From: a virus
Strand: one strand, 5' to 3'
Virus record (IMG/VR): IMGVR_UViG_3300025483_000040
Coordinates: 1 to 34,731 of that record
Length of the DNA: 34,731 bases
In this document: positions 16,349 through 32,391 of the stretch, in pieces
Position numbering within the stretch: the first letter of the stretch is position 1
How the letters are laid out: the number at the start of each line of letters is the position of its first letter
Made by a program: the position numbers and the translations under genes
The notes under the pieces: generated by a model
Database searches by the model: none
Told to the model about the DNA's origin: nothing
Seen by the model: the letters and a program-made list of their open reading frames with translations, nothing else

Positions 16349-16555
16349 ATGTCATACATCAAAGTTTCTGGGCATGATGGTCTCGTAAGGGACGAAAACA
16401 CAGGTGCCATCATTAATGTGGACAGCTCTGCTATTGAAGCAAGGCGCAAATCTAAACAATTGAATTCCGCGTTGCGGGACATAAATACGTTGAAGGATGA
16501 AGTATCTGAACTTAAAACCTTACTGCGAGAGTTAATCAAAAATGCCAGCAATTAA
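16349..16555 (+). CDS. Small coiled-coil protein of the cyanophage structural cluster
   Basis: 68 aa. The N-terminal part has GHDGLVRDENTGAIINVDS, a pattern (L-V-R-D-x-x-T/S-G-A-I-I-N) I recognise from small proteins in T4-like marine phage structural clusters. From about residue 30 to 65 it is a charged helix with heptad-like Leu/Ile spacing (LNSALRDINTLKDEVSELKT), so a coiled coil is likely. It begins nine bases after the preceding stop, without a clear ribosome site, and its last 14 bases overlap the next gene, suggesting translational coupling. Its function is unknown; a small chaperone or linker for the adjacent giant proteins is possible but inferred. Confidence 0.85.
   Translation: MSYIKVSGHDGLVRDENTGAIINVDSSAIEARRKSKQLNSALRDINTLKDEVSELKTLLRELIKNASN
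16480..16487 (+). promoter_or_regulatory. Possible internal late promoter before the 1625-aa gene
   Basis: CATAAATA fits the NATAAATA consensus and lies inside the 68-aa gene, 54 bases before the ATG at 16542. It also encodes part of the coiled-coil protein, so a chance match is quite possible. Confidence 0.35.
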
Positions 16556-19500
16556 TGTCGCTAGAACCGACACCTTTGAGATTCAAAGACAAAAAATTAA
16601 TGATATTGGATCTCAAATATTTGGTCTTACACAAGGTGGTAGCGACCTTGCTACAGGCAATTTAAGATTAGGAGATGGGGGTAGAGCAGCTCCATCTTTA
16701 TCTTTCATTAATGACCCAACTTTGGGATTATATAGATCGGGAACCTCTGAATTTGAATACGTTACTTCTGGAAAAAGAATCATCAAATACGGTGGTTTTG
16801 AGAATGTTTCATATAGAAACCTCATTTTCCAAAAAAACTTATTAATTGATAGTGGAGTAACAGTCACTAACGGCGGACAAAATTATGATGTCGGTACATT
16901 TAGTGATGTAATTTTAACAGGTGGTTCTGGCGTAAATTCACGAGCATCTTTAAATGTTGAAGAATTTGTAGGAACTGTTACCAACCAAGGAGCAAATTAC
17001 ACTAACGGTCAATTTTTAGGAGTTCCTGTTACTGGTGGTAATGGCACTGGAGGAATTCTTACTGTCCAGGTTGATGGTATTACTGGTACTATTTCTAACG
17101 CTGGCAGTGGATATGTTCCTGGAACATACACTTCTGTCCCACTCACAGGTGGAACGGGAACTAGTGCTGAAGCAACTGTAACAGTTACTGGAACTGTTAC
17201 TACAACTGGTACTATTTCTAACGCTGGATCTGGGTATGCAGTTAATTCATACACTGGTATTGAACTTTTAAATACACCAACAACCACGTATGCAGTAACA
17301 GCAAATGGCACACCTGCGTTTGTTATTGATAGTTCTACAGCTCCAACATTATCGTTAATTCCTGGAAACACATACAGATTTGATCTTTCTGATGCATCTG
17401 TAGCAGCATACACATTTGCTGTATTTGATGAGTTTGGATTACCTTTAGACAGCAACTACGTATCTTTTGCTAAGGGAACTCAGGGTCAAGCAGGAGCATT
17501 TTTTGATCTAATTGTCAAACCTTCAGCACCAGTAGGAACTTCTATTCAATATAGAGCCAGCAATGCTGCTGATATGGGTGCGCCTATTAATATTGTTTCT
17601 GGTTCTGCTGGAGACTATGGATCTGGCATGGTCGTATCTATTACTGCCGATCCAAACGAAGTTGTTACAAATGTTACAATCACAGATCCTGGTGATGGAT
17701 ATGTTGCTGGTGATGTTCTTACTGTATTTGCTGCAGATTTAAGTTCTCCCACTGCAACTGGTTTTGAATATACAGTTTCTACTGTAACATATGCAGGTAC
17801 GGTAACCGATGTAACAGTTACTGATATTGGACAAAATTATGTAAATGGGGATCCACTATCTGCTTCTAATACAAATCTATGTCCATATGGTGAAAATGTA
17901 GGATCTGGATTTGCGTTTGATGTAACATCAAACCCAGGAAAAGTAATTCTTTCTACATTTTCTAGCAAAGGAACTGATTATACGGTAAATGATGTATTGG
18001 GTATTCCAGGTAGAACTTCTGGTTTAACATCTACTCTAGCAACAGACAATACTACAATTACAGTAACTAGCACTGCTGGTATTGTTCCTGGATCAACACT
18101 AGATAATGTCAGTGGAGCAGGTACTTTTGCTGCTGGAACAACTGTTGTTTCTGTTACTGATGAAACTAATTTTGTAATTTCGACACTTCCAACTGGAGCA
18201 GGTGCAGTAACATTTGATTTAGTCCCGCCATATGGAGAAGGAACTACTGCATATCAATTTACAGTTTCTCGTACTGGTGTTGTAACTGGAGTCACCATTG
18301 AAAGTGGGGGAAATGGATATGAAGTTGGTGACACTTTAAGCGTATTTGCTCCAGATTTAACAACACCCATCACATATACTGTAAAAACTGGCAGTGTATC
18401 TAAGGTTGATTTTACATCAACATATCCTGTAGCGCAGTTTACTGCTGGCGATCAAGTAAAGAAAAAAGATGGTACTATCGTTACAACAACCACAACTAGT
18501 GCTACTACAACATCTCAGGGGATATATGGTCCAGGACTAGCAACCACAACCAGTGGAAACGGTACTGGAGCAACAGTTTCAATTGAGAGAGATAGTAGCG
18601 GTGCTATTATATCAATTGCTTTCATCAATTCAGGATTTTATTATGCTGTTAACGATACTGTCACGATTGCTGGCAACTTAGTAGGTGGTGCTACTCCAGC
18701 TGATGATGTTGTACTTACAATTACTGATGCTACTGTAGAAACTCCAAGAGAAGTTGCAGAGGTAGTATCTGCAGGAGGAACAAACATTGACTATTTGGTT
18801 CTAGATTCAACTGGATATTCTGCTGCAGATATCTTGGTTAAATCTGGTACTACTTCGCCAGAATATACAATCAACACAATTACAGAAACCTCTGACAGAT
18901 TTTCTATTAATACTGGTAGTGGTGATAGTTTTGCTCCAAACTTAACTCTATATTCTGGAAATACTTACACCTTTGATTTCTCTGATGTCTCTAATTCTAA
19001 TGGTGGTCATGTTTTCGCGTTATCTAAATTCAGAGATGGTGCATTTGAACCAAGTAGAATCACTGGTGTAACAACACAACTTGTCACAGCAAATGCTCAA
19101 ATTACAGTAGCAAGCACTGCAGGAATTCTTCCTGACATGACTGTTATTGTTGCTTCTGGAACAGGAACTCTACCAGATGGAACCCGTGTTTTATCCGTCG
19201 ATGATGCCACAACTCTAACACTTGACGAAGTGCCAGCATCACCAGGCGCAGCAACGCTCCAGTTTAATGGAAATGAGTTTACAGATGGTGTATTCAGAGA
19301 TAGCACTGTTACAACAATTCAGGTATCTGACGCAACACCAACTACCTTATACTATTATTGTACTGTACACCCAAATATGGGTGGTTATGATAATACAGAA
19401 ATTGCAATTACCACAGATCCAAATAATCCAAAAACTTTTGGATCTGATTTAGAAATCACAATATCTTCTATTCAATCAGAATCATCTATATCTTTAGATA

Positions 19501-21419
19501 TTGTCAATGGTGCTGTCACTGCATCTGATGTAACAGCAGATGGTTTAACTGCTGGAACAGCAGAAGTTAGTAACACATTAACAGCGCCAAATATCGCAGG
19601 TGTTCTGATTTCAGCAACTAACATTAACTCAACTACAACTTTCAATATAACGTCACCGCAAATTACGGCAGATGGTAATTTTTCTGTTGGTGCTACATTG
19701 CAAGTTGCATCAGTAAGTGGTAATCTTTCTACACCAGGCGAAATTAAAACCACCACCGTCTTTAATTGCAATGATAGATTAACTATCACGAATAATCAAA
19801 TTGCTACTCTTGGAACTGATGATCTTATCCTTGATCCACCAGCAAATAGAGTAGCAAAAGTACAAGCAGACACTGCTTTAATTATTCCAGCAGGTGACAC
19901 TAGTGCTCGTCCCGCTGCTGGTATAGTTGCTGATGGTGCTATTAGATACAATACAGAAACTAACCAGTATGAAGGTTATAGTTCTGGCACTAGCACTTGG
20001 TCTTCTTTAGGTGGCGTAAGAGATCTGGATGGAAATACTTACATTGCTGCAGAAGAAACGGTTGGTGCAAATGATAATACATTGTGGTTCTACAATGACA
20101 ACATCAATACGATTAGGGTTACACCAAATCACCTAGAGTTTGTTAACGTAAAGAAAATACGTTCTATCAACACTTCTGCTCCAGCATATACAGAATGGGC
20201 AGCACAAACTGCAGTTACACAAGGATCATATGTAAAATACGGAAACAATTTATATGAGGTCACAGTTGCTGGTACTACAGGAACTACTGGAACAGAACCA
20301 ACACATGTAACAGGTGCTGCAGTAAATGGTACTGCAACACTTACTTGGAATTCTTTAGCGGTTTCTTCATTAACGTTTGAAGATATCGAAGAGGTCAAAA
20401 TTGGACCCATTACAGATACCCCACTTACTATTTCTGGTGATCTTAGATTAGTAAGCAATGTAATTTCTACCGATGTTAGTGATCTCCTCTTAAGACCAAA
20501 TGCTGGTAAGAAAATAGTAGTTGACTCACTTACCACTTTTACTTTACCTGTAGGAACTGAAACTCAAAGAGGCATTCCTGCACAGGGTGGTGTTAGATTT
20601 AACACAACTTCTAGTCAGTTTGAAGGTTATGATGGATCTAACTGGGGTTCTCTTGGTGGTGTTAAAGACGTTGACCAAAACACATACATTATTCCAGAAA
20701 CTTCCCCTGGTGCTAATGAGAATACATTATACTTCTATAATGACAATAACAAAACTCTAGAGTTGACTACAACTGCATTAGATTTTTACGCAGTTGATAC
20801 GATTAGATCACAGACCAGTGATGAGCTTGAAATCACTGCTTCGTTAATTACTTTTGACAGTGCCGCTACAACTATTGATAATACGGCTACGACAAGAACA
20901 TTCTTACATTCGAGTAAACAATATTTTGATATTGGACTATCTGGTGGTGTAAATGTTGATCCTGTCTTAAGACTTGATGATCAAGGTGATGTGTATTTCA
21001 ACACTGGATTTGGAACTGGCACTTTTAGTGGAGTCAAAGTTTTTGATGGAGATTTAAAAGAATTTGAACTCTCTGATGCTAGAATTTTAACAGACAAACT
21101 CACTTTGATTAAGGGAACAATTGATGTTGTTAATAGCACGATTTACAATGCCTTAACAGAAAGAGGAGCAAAAACAACTGTTATTGCTGAGAACACTACT
21201 ACAGGAGAAAAGGAGTTCTTTGAATTTGGAATTCTAGATGATGGTGCGGATATATACCATACAGAGTATGGAAATGTTAGAACAGGAAATCAACTGATCA
21301 CTCCAACGTTTGAGTATACGTCCAATAATACAGCAAGACTCAATATTGATATTGCAACATCTGTTCTCAATACGCACACTATTAATATTACCGTCGTTTC
21401 AAACATTAGCAAGAAATAA
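16542..21419 (+). CDS. 1625-aa modular virion protein with cupredoxin-like domains
   Basis: Not assignable to a T4 gene with confidence. The N-terminus (DTFEIQRQKINDIGSQIFGL) resembles the short helical start of T4 gp9/gp10-type proteins (K-I-N-x-x-F/I). Next come four tandem G-x-x-Y modules of about 40 residues (104-235) and further such modules near 375-720. A cupredoxin-like domain without copper ligands lies at about 248-356, and one with His823, Cys940, His943 and Met946 at about 784-955, interrupted by a V-A-S-T-A-G-I-L-P beta module. Two knob-like repeats (I-R-Y-N-T ... L-G-G-V-R-D ... N-T-L-W-F-Y-N-D-N) follow near 1110-1200 and 1330-1415, with a carbohydrate-binding-like segment (about 1214-1273) between them. 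The last 80 residues loosely resemble the T4 gp9 C-terminus. The start overlaps the previous gene by 14 bases. A baseplate or fibre role is inferred from context. Confidence 0.8.
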   Translation: MPAINVARTDTFEIQRQKINDIGSQIFGLTQGGSDLATGNLRLGDGGRAAPSLSFINDPTLGLYRSGTSEFEYVTSGKRIIKYGGFENVSYRNLIFQKNLLIDSGVTVTNGGQNYDVGTFSDVILTGGSGVNSRASLNVEEFVGTVTNQGANYTNGQFLGVPVTGGNGTGGILTVQVDGITGTISNAGSGYVPGTYTSVPLTGGTGTSAEATVTVTGTVTTTGTISNAGSGYAVNSYTGIELLNTPTTTYAVTANGTPAFVIDSSTAPTLSLIPGNTYRFDLSDASVAAYTFAVFDEFGLPLDSNYVSFAKGTQGQAGAFFDLIVKPSAPVGTSIQYRASNAADMGAPINIVSGSAGDYGSGMVVSITADPNEVVTNVTITDPGDGYVAGDVLTVFAADLSSPTATGFEYTVSTVTYAGTVTDVTVTDIGQNYVNGDPLSASNTNLCPYGENVGSGFAFDVTSNPGKVILSTFSSKGTDYTVNDVLGIPGRTSGLTSTLATDNTTITVTSTAGIVPGSTLDNVSGAGTFAAGTTVVSVTDETNFVISTLPTGAGAVTFDLVPPYGEGTTAYQFTVSRTGVVTGVTIESGGNGYEVGDTLSVFAPDLTTPITYTVKTGSVSKVDFTSTYPVAQFTAGDQVKKKDGTIVTTTTTSATTTSQGIYGPGLATTTSGNGTGATVSIERDSSGAIISIAFINSGFYYAVNDTVTIAGNLVGGATPADDVVLTITDATVETPREVAEVVSAGGTNIDYLVLDSTGYSAADILVKSGTTSPEYTINTITETSDRFSINTGSGDSFAPNLTLYSGNTYTFDFSDVSNSNGGHVFALSKFRDGAFEPSRITGVTTQLVTANAQITVASTAGILPDMTVIVASGTGTLPDGTRVLSVDDATTLTLDEVPASPGAATLQFNGNEFTDGVFRDSTVTTIQVSDATPTTLYYYCTVHPNMGGYDNTEIAITTDPNNPKTFGSDLEITISSIQSESSISLDIVNGAVTASDVTADGLTAGTAEVSNTLTAPNIAGVLISATNINSTTTFNITSPQITADGNFSVGATLQVASVSGNLSTPGEIKTTTVFNCNDRLTITNNQIATLGTDDLILDPPANRVAKVQADTALIIPAGDTSARPAAGIVADGAIRYNTETNQYEGYSSGTSTWSSLGGVRDLDGNTYIAAEETVGANDNTLWFYNDNINTIRVTPNHLEFVNVKKIRSINTSAPAYTEWAAQTAVTQGSYVKYGNNLYEVTVAGTTGTTGTEPTHVTGAAVNGTATLTWNSLAVSSLTFEDIEEVKIGPITDTPLTISGDLRLVSNVISTDVSDLLLRPNAGKKIVVDSLTTFTLPVGTETQRGIPAQGGVRFNTTSSQFEGYDGSNWGSLGGVKDVDQNTYIIPETSPGANENTLYFYNDNNKTLELTTTALDFYAVDTIRSQTSDELEITASLITFDSAATTIDNTATTRTFLHSSKQYFDIGLSGGVNVDPVLRLDDQGDVYFNTGFGTGTFSGVKVFDGDLKEFELSDARILTDKLTLIKGTIDVVNSTIYNALTERGAKTTVIAENTTTGEKEFFEFGILDDGADIYHTEYGNVRTGNQLITPTFEYTSNNTARLNIDIATSVLNTHTINITVVSNISKK
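16853..17240 (+). repeat. Four tandem G-x-x-Y beta modules of about 40 residues
   Basis: Successive units begin VTNGGQNY, VTNQGANY, ISNAGSGY and ISNAGSGY, and the first three continue through a L/V-T-G-G-x-G stretch. Units three and four are so alike that a perfect 23-base direct repeat remains at 17082-17104 and 17205-17227, exactly 123 bases (41 codons) apart, so frame is preserved. Confidence 0.85.
18892..19407 (+). other. Cupredoxin-like domain with a complete copper ligand set, split by an insert
   Basis: Residues about 784-955 of the 1625-aa protein. LTLYSGNTYTFDFSD precedes GGHVFALS, which supplies His823. The C-terminal strand reads YYYCTVHPNMGG, supplying Cys940, His943 and Met946 in the C-x2-H-x2-M spacing of some type-1 copper sites. 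Between the two halves, about 70 residues (from TANAQITVASTAGILP to LQFNG, roughly 19087-19269) form a separate beta module that is also found near 18040-18220. Copper binding is inferred from motif only. Confidence 0.6.
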
Positions 21420-31425: not shown

Positions 31426-32391
31426 ATGTCAACTTTTAATGCCAATAAATTAACCATTACAGGAACTGGAAATGCTTTCCAGTTTCCAAGAAAAACTACT
31501 TCGCAAAGAAATAGTCTTCCTTACCAAACGGGGTCAATGATTTACAATACTTCTGATAATAAACTCCAAGTTTTTGATGGTTCTTCTTGGGTTAATTTGG
31601 GAGCTCCTGCAACTTTGCAAGCAAGTGGAGGTTCTGTAACTACTTATACTTCTGGTGGAGTAACATATCAAGCCCATACATTTACATCAACAGGAACTTT
31701 CAGTGTTACGTCTTCCCCGCCAGGATCATCTGTTGAATTCTTACTCGTAGCAGGAGGAGGTGGTGGCGGATCCGATAGCAGAACTGGTGCTCACTATCAC
31801 GGTGGTGGTGGTGGAGCTGGTGGTGTGTTAACAGGTAATACTGGTGTTAGTGCTACTAACTATAGTATTTCTATTGGAAACGGTGGATCTGGTAGCACTA
31901 ACACCAGAGGAAATAGTGGCAACTCTACTAATTTCAACGGTCAATCTGCTGTTGGTGGTGGTTGGGGAGGACGCTATGGTCAAGGCGGATCTAGTGGAGG
32001 TTCTGGCGGAGGTGCTGGTAGAGATGCTGGTGGTGCTGGAAATGGTACTCCTGGTCAAGGAAACAACGGTGGAAACTCTGGAGGCGGAGGCGGTGGTGCT
32101 GGCAGCAACGCTGGATATCCTGGTGGAAATGGAAGAAGTGTTAATTACAGAAATGGAGGCGGCGTTACCTATGGTGGTGGTGGCGGCGGAGCTCCTCTAG
32201 GCTGGGGATCTAGTGGAGTTTGGCCAGGTGGTTCTGGTGGAGGTGGATATGGTAGAAGTTCTCATGATAGTGGCGGGAACGGACAAAATGGATCTAATGG
32301 TCTAGGTGGTGGCGGCGGTGCTGCTGGTGTTAGATATAGAAGTGGTAATGGTGGCACTGGTATTGCTGTCATTAGATATGCTATTGGTTAA
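31426..32391 (+). CDS. Glycine-rich adhesin-like protein
   Basis: 321 aa in three parts. Residues 22-58 carry the module shared with the two preceding genes. Residues about 60-105 form a beta segment ending VEFLLVAGGGGGG. The rest is about 40% glycine by my count, with runs of four to six Gly separated by Ser, Asn or aromatic residues, and it ends GNGGTGIAVIRYAIG. This matches the widespread glycine-rich domain of phage and bacterial surface proteins (L-V-A-G-G-G-G-G at the start, G-G-x-G-x-x-x-I-R-Y at the end; PF21722 is a likely match). Glycine-rich runs also form the receptor-binding polyglycine-II sandwich of gp38 adhesins in some T4-like phages, so a host-recognition tip is plausible but not shown. 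No late promoter lies in the 11-base gap upstream, so it is probably co-transcribed with the 60-aa gene. Confidence 0.85.
   Translation: MSTFNANKLTITGTGNAFQFPRKTTSQRNSLPYQTGSMIYNTSDNKLQVFDGSSWVNLGAPATLQASGGSVTTYTSGGVTYQAHTFTSTGTFSVTSSPPGSSVEFLLVAGGGGGGSDSRTGAHYHGGGGGAGGVLTGNTGVSATNYSISIGNGGSGSTNTRGNSGNSTNFNGQSAVGGGWGGRYGQGGSSGGSGGGAGRDAGGAGNGTPGQGNNGGNSGGGGGGAGSNAGYPGGNGRSVNYRNGGGVTYGGGGGGAPLGWGSSGVWPGGSGGGGYGRSSHDSGGNGQNGSNGLGGGGGAAGVRYRSGNGGTGIAVIRYAIG

Follow-up and report, generated by a model that had tools for sequence, protein, structure and literature searches.

Does a structural protein of an ocean phage carry a type-1 copper site, and is that site housed in a cupredoxin domain that has been split by another module? 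The question is raised by a protein of 1625 amino acids encoded in an uncultivated virus, IMG/VR record IMGVR_UViG_3300025483_000040; the window analyzed here is the 34,731-nt stretch of that record. A reading of the sequence alone (the sequence-only reading) had picked out four residues of this protein as the ligand set of a blue-copper-like site. The cupredoxin fold and the type-1 site are already known. What is new is a cupredoxin module in the tail proteins of marine phages, and the open-access literature searched contained no description of a phage tail with a copper-type domain.

Genomic setting of the carrier protein

The gene order in the window is T4-like and runs from baseplate to neck. 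The series opens with a large structural protein (phrog_4406), gp8 (PF09215), a 2815-aa protein, and the 1625-aa protein; it continues with a 166-aa protein (phrog_5449) and a 3011-aa protein whose orthologues are annotated as tail fibre-like, and it finishes with a glycine-rich tip-like protein (PF21722), a 175-aa protein, a gp13-like adaptor, and a gp14-like neck protein. Because the closest DNA relatives of the window are Synechococcus phages, at ~75% identity, the virus can be assigned from its sequence to the T4-like, Kyanoviridae-type cyanophages. The host is probably a phototroph.

The 1625-aa protein (16542..21419, + strand) matches phrog_6005, "virion structural protein," over its entire length (residues 1–1625 against 1–1512 of 1512, 1857 bits), and its syntenic orthologues in Kyanoviridae are annotated as virion structural or structural proteins. 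Its membership in the virion is inferred from this annotation and from the family, and not from proteomics; PMC3037559 reports proteomics. The gene sits between gp8 and the gp13/14-like genes, an interval that in T4 contains gp9 to gp12 and wac. By inference from this position in the T4 gene order, the product probably belongs to the periphery of the baseplate or to the short fibres. It is long and beta-rich and probably trimeric, although the trimer is inferred.

Two other features of the region can be mentioned. The glycine-rich protein (31426–32391) adjoins the fibre genes in the position of a possible receptor-binding tip and has one HxH motif. A Phycobilisome Pfam match in the gene upstream of the 1625-aa gene (E 0.002) fell under the cut-off and was judged to be chance.

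Fold and split of the C-terminal copy

The 1625-aa protein contains two cupredoxin-like copies. The C-terminal copy (C-copy), modelled with its insert as aa 776–960 (18867..19421, + strand), holds the residues noticed in the sequence-only reading, and they are present in type-1 copper order. The predicted copper ligands are His823 (19008..19010), Cys940 (19359..19361), and His943 (19368..19370), with Met946 (19377..19379) as the predicted axial ligand, all on the + strand. The last strand of the C-copy is TLYYYCTVHPNMGGYDN. In the whole protein, His is found at 823, 943, 1197, 1255, 1456, 1573, and 1612, and Cys at 447, 940, and 1076. Up to residue 1,196 there are thus no His other than the two of the ligand set. 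There is no HxH motif in the protein.

The interruption of the domain was examined with a profile made from 12 unsplit relatives, with no window sequence among them. The first half of the C-copy, aa 777–845 (18870..19076, + strand), matches model positions 6–71 of this profile; the second half, aa 909–951 (19266..19394, + strand), which includes the C-x2-H-x2-M loop, matches positions 72–110. The inserted module suspected in the sequence-only reading is confirmed in this way, but its limits, put there at residues 850–910, had to be moved: since the two halves meet at the consecutive positions 71 and 72, the insert is assigned to aa 844–909 (19071..19268, + strand; insert profile E 7.9e-25), a beta-barrel module of ~65 residues.

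The same unsplit-relative profile finds an N-terminal copy (N-copy) at aa 247–351 (17280..17594, + strand; E 1.5e-24) that the sequence-only reading had not mentioned. This copy is unsplit and ligand-less. Its ligand positions read Y, A, A, and M, with the first His replaced by Tyr, the Cys and the second His by Ala, and only the Met kept.

Sequence comparison with known families supports the ligand pattern and little beyond it. In a profile–profile comparison with 32 plastocyanin-type proteins, from cyanobacterial genomes nearly throughout, the family scores 38.4 with all four ligands aligned, against a maximum of 17.6 in 40 column-shuffled controls. Masking the four ligand columns lowers the score to 17.2, the level of the shuffles. 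Because masking abolishes the match, no sequence homology is claimed beyond the ligand pattern. Plastocyanin and amicyanin (PF00127) share the ligand set and its order with the phage domain, and the C-x2-H-x2-M spacing is also found in amicyanin. Plastocyanin differs in having a His-Asn second-sphere pair, whereas the phage domain, as part of a virion protein, has His-Pro or His-Val; the first His is followed by Val in the C-copy of the window and by Pro in most relatives. PF00127 itself has no match at E<=1 in the window protein or in 12 relatives, and the domain is matched by nothing in Pfam or NCBIfam. A search of PDB sequences with profiles returned plastocyanins only at E 0.4–0.7, among antibody chains, and nothing significant, which made a comparison at the level of fold necessary.

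AlphaFold2 models were made from natural sequences in both cases, an unsplit natural relative standing in for the window halves without the insert. The split window domain (aa 776–960, 53 aligned sequences) reached a pLDDT of 93.4 and a pTM of 0.86, and the unsplit relative, the N-copy of locus L018 (48 aligned sequences), a pLDDT of 97.4 and a pTM of 0.88. A Foldseek search of the PDB with the unsplit model placed Hyphomicrobium nitrite reductase first (5.8e-4), followed by rusticyanin (9.0e-4 and 1.3e-3), all three with a probability of 1.00. A second look with VIA gave cupredoxin folds in 50 of the 50 rows listed, at Z 7.0–8.4 over the entire domain. These rows include laccases, nitrite reductase, rusticyanin, other copper oxidases, and coagulation factors V and VIII, copper proteins nearly throughout. 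With the split model, rusticyanin is matched at Z 7.1 over 93 residues spanning the insert; the rows that span the full length are rusticyanin, laccases including small laccases, and nitrite reductase at Z 5–7, and the insert has matches of its own. VIA values of Z 7–8 are moderate, and the weight comes from the uniformity of the list.

The predicted positions of the ligands fit this picture. Cys940 is the final residue of a predicted strand (160–165 of the model) and His823 immediately precedes another, as in cupredoxins. The fold anticipated in the sequence-only reading is thus the one indicated by Foldseek and VIA for the unsplit model and by VIA for the split model. Judged by these models, the C-copy is a genuine cupredoxin domain with a Greek-key beta-sandwich; the ligand–ligand distances remain unmeasured. 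Rusticyanin and the N-terminal cupredoxin domain of the Hyphomicrobium nitrite reductase resemble the phage domain in its predicted fold over the whole domain and in the order His…Cys…His…Met. They differ in being soluble or enzyme-borne redox proteins without an inserted domain, at ~20% identity to the phage domain, and their ligand loop is of a different length.

A free second copy of the insert is found in the same protein at aa 496–559 (18027..18218, + strand; insert profile E 1e-12), outside any cupredoxin domain, and across the loci collected there are 187 copies outside and 103 inside a cupredoxin-like domain. The module (ITVxSTxGILxGMxV) occurs as one to four repeats per orthologue and grafts into other domains. 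No match to the insert was found in the PDB by sequence. By fold, the corresponding model residues 64–135 match an Arthrobacter phage Bridgette chain (8eci_1; Z 8.3, 1.7 Å, 66 aa), and the fold also matches a tail-tube protein (9n71), the P22 coat protein in its insertion region, and ubiquitin-activating enzyme in its corresponding domain. Since free copies exist and the fold matches small beta-barrels of other proteins, the insert is a promiscuous module that landed in a cupredoxin loop.

Occurrence of the domain and fate of its ligands

The domain is observed widely in marine viruses. At least 581 IMG/VR stretches encode a relative when one conserved pattern alone is counted, and cultured carriers include phages of Synechococcus, Prochlorococcus, Pelagibacter (SAR11), and Methylophilales. 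In the cultured phages, the carrier proteins are mostly annotated as tail fibre, baseplate, or virion structural, and the carrier of Pelagibacter phage Mosig has a T4 gp9/gp10-type domain at its N terminus. PHROGs 6005, 30742, 693, 708, 677, and 32294, which are baseplate or tail fibre proteins of cyanophages and other marine phages, share the domain; in no case does the annotation mention metal binding or a cupredoxin.

In most of the best 80 IMG/VR loci, the domain forms the end of a protein of ~245 residues. This marine virus protein, of unknown role, is very common in IMG/VR and has a phrog_28581 N terminus with the cupredoxin domain exactly at its end (for example, L057:2161-2889, L093:689-1405, L075:5455-6288, and most of L041–L120). 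Some members have four Cys resembling a zinc ribbon.

A further 16 relatives are found on bacterial genome contigs. The bacterial carriers (L125, L129–L131, L134, and L135) are giant, secreted-looking repeat proteins in Prochlorococcus, proteins of Bacteroidetes, and one SAR86 protein whose N-terminal stretch is rich in Gly/Ser and Pro. An exchange of the cupredoxin domain between phage fibres and host surface proteins is possible. In Prochlorococcus phage P-HM1, the domain (L039:3001-3207) lies within a protein annotated as gp7, the baseplate wedge initiator. Immediately downstream is T4-GC 512, the same small structural gene as in the relatives of the window. The gp7 annotation could be mistaken, or a gene fusion could be involved.

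Ligand conservation, which the sequence-only reading had named as a check, holds for the family at large and only in part for the orthologues of the window's C-copy. The set H, C, H, and M is complete in 44 of 48 domains below 80% identity, which came from phages and a small number of marine bacterial contigs; the four exceptions are the N-copy of the window itself and rows that are partial or misaligned. PHROG 6005 orthologues carry one or two cupredoxin-like copies, and only 28 of their 77 distinct C-copies are canonical. A further 23 have a long loop, C-x4 to x10-H; in 17 of these Glu follows two residues later, and in the other 6 Met. The Cys/His loop has been lost in 26. The first His is kept in all 28 canonical and all 23 long-loop copies (51/51) and is gone in 18 of the 26 loop-less ones. 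From these alignments it appears that the ligands, when lost, tend to disappear together.

The state of one copy is linked to that of the other. A canonical N-copy accompanies 2 of the 28 canonical C-copies as against 43 of the 49 lost or changed ones, and only 2 of 74 orthologues have a canonical site in both. The window protein has a dead N-copy and a living C-copy, and L189 and the group L142/L143/L170 are separate cases of the same kind. The Fisher p of 1.4e-11 for this trade-off is uncorrected for descent and is no proof. On a tree of the part downstream of the C-copy, 10 supported independent pairs are available, of which 7 are opposite, none is the same, and 3 are neutral (sign test, median p 0.016). 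When the tree is instead based on the N-terminal 235 residues, only 1 supported independent pair remains, because the N-terminal block and the state of the C-copy travel together, and the two-copy proteins alone give too few pairs for the analysis of independence. The trade-off is a strong association in the sequences; selection that keeps a single canonical site in each chain would fit it, but this is unproven.

These losses bear on whether the ligands matter at all. They could be a fossil in a fold that persists as a sandwich for structure or binding, with a metal site that is no longer relevant: the set is missing from 26 of the 77 C-copies and from the N-copy of the window, and the domains have nonetheless been retained in the protein. 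That explanation seems improbable, as it does not fit the retention of all four ligands in 44 of 48 diverse domains, or the fact that ligand-less copies mostly share a protein with another copy that bears them.

Metal binding and its possible role

The ligand set, its conservation, its loss as a unit, and the fold are together best explained by metal binding. It seems likely that the C-copy binds a metal, with copper as the best candidate, and serves as a structural or receptor-contact module of the virion, although there are no data on bound metal or on expression. The identity of the metal and the occupancy of the site are inferred, as is the exposure of the module; a structural or host-contact role in the tail is likewise an inference, made from the carrier proteins.

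A different metal could occupy the same fold, for example zinc acquired in the cytoplasm during virion assembly, or there could be a mixture of metals; the role would then be purely structural. Free copper is kept very low in that compartment, and the long-loop His/Cys/His/Glu arrangement seen in 17 of 77 C-copies need not be blue copper. A site for another metal is nevertheless the rather unlikely reading, given that the C-x2-H-x2-M loop with its upstream His is the type-1 copper arrangement and that the fold neighbours are overwhelmingly copper proteins. If copper is the metal, the low level of free copper in the cytoplasm suggests that loading probably takes place after release from the cell, which is an inference.

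An electron-transfer module resembling plastocyanin, acting on the host surface or on the photosynthetic chain, would make use of the same ligands. The set is that of plastocyanin and rusticyanin and the host is probably a phototroph, but the domain forms part of a virion protein that is fibre-like, no redox gene that could act as a partner lies nearby in the window, and phages of nonphototrophs (SAR11 and Methylophilales) carry the domain as well. Such a module is highly improbable as an account of the locus. More generally, electron transfer by the domain finds no support in this analysis and is unlikely, because the domain occurs in phages of nonphototrophs and inside long fibre-like proteins.

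Under the copper-binding reading, a working model can be outlined. The ~65-residue beta-barrel has been placed between two strands of the cupredoxin, and the two halves could still close into one site because the insert is remote from the ligand residues in the sequence. The canonical copy would take up one metal ion per chain, most likely copper, and the bound metal would pin the ligand loop and stabilize an exposed tail module. The stabilized module may then have a structural role or one in contact with the host surface. In the window virus, the N-copy has lost its ligands and the C-copy holds the predicted site.

A broader proposal can be made only tentatively. It is possible, though doubtful on present evidence, that ocean tailed phages carry widespread and unrecognized copper-binding cupredoxin modules in their tails; that selection maintains about one canonical site per chain in the PHROG 6005 proteins, with the site switching between copies and the other copy decaying or taking on the long-loop His/Cys/His/Glu form; and that virions act as copper carriers for tail stability or host contact. 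Judging by the distribution, copper may be carried by many virus particles in the ocean, again without binding data.

The nearest concept is that of the iron sites in the long tail fibre gp37 of T4 and the "Ferrojan horse" idea (PMC11705849 and references there), which also places metal ions in phage tail proteins. The T4 sites are His-x-His iron sites, whereas the 1625-aa protein has a cupredoxin site and no such motif. Cyanophages are also known for petE (plastocyanin), an auxiliary metabolic gene listed in PMC3037559. It shares the logic of the copper site and the virus group with the domain described here, but its product is a separate small soluble protein and not a virion module.

If copper is bound, metalloproteins would make up a large fraction of the phage particles in the sea. 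This would have a bearing on the speciation of copper in seawater, on its use as an adsorption cue or co-factor, and on the response of phage infectivity to metals. A module placed inside a split metal site, together with the trade-off between two copies, makes for a clear natural example of domain grafting.

The Glu variant of the C-copy is a separate observation. In it, C-x4 to x6-H-x-x-Glu replaces C-x2-H-x-x-Met, so that the axial position of Met946 is taken by Glu, and the first His is always kept. This long-loop form is possibly a different metal site. Nitrosocyanin is a red copper protein, and the variant is similar to it in ligand type, which is a lead only. Examples are the C-copies of L001, L007, L011, L018, L022, L148, L152, L164, L166, L169, L171, L175, L177, L197, and L212.
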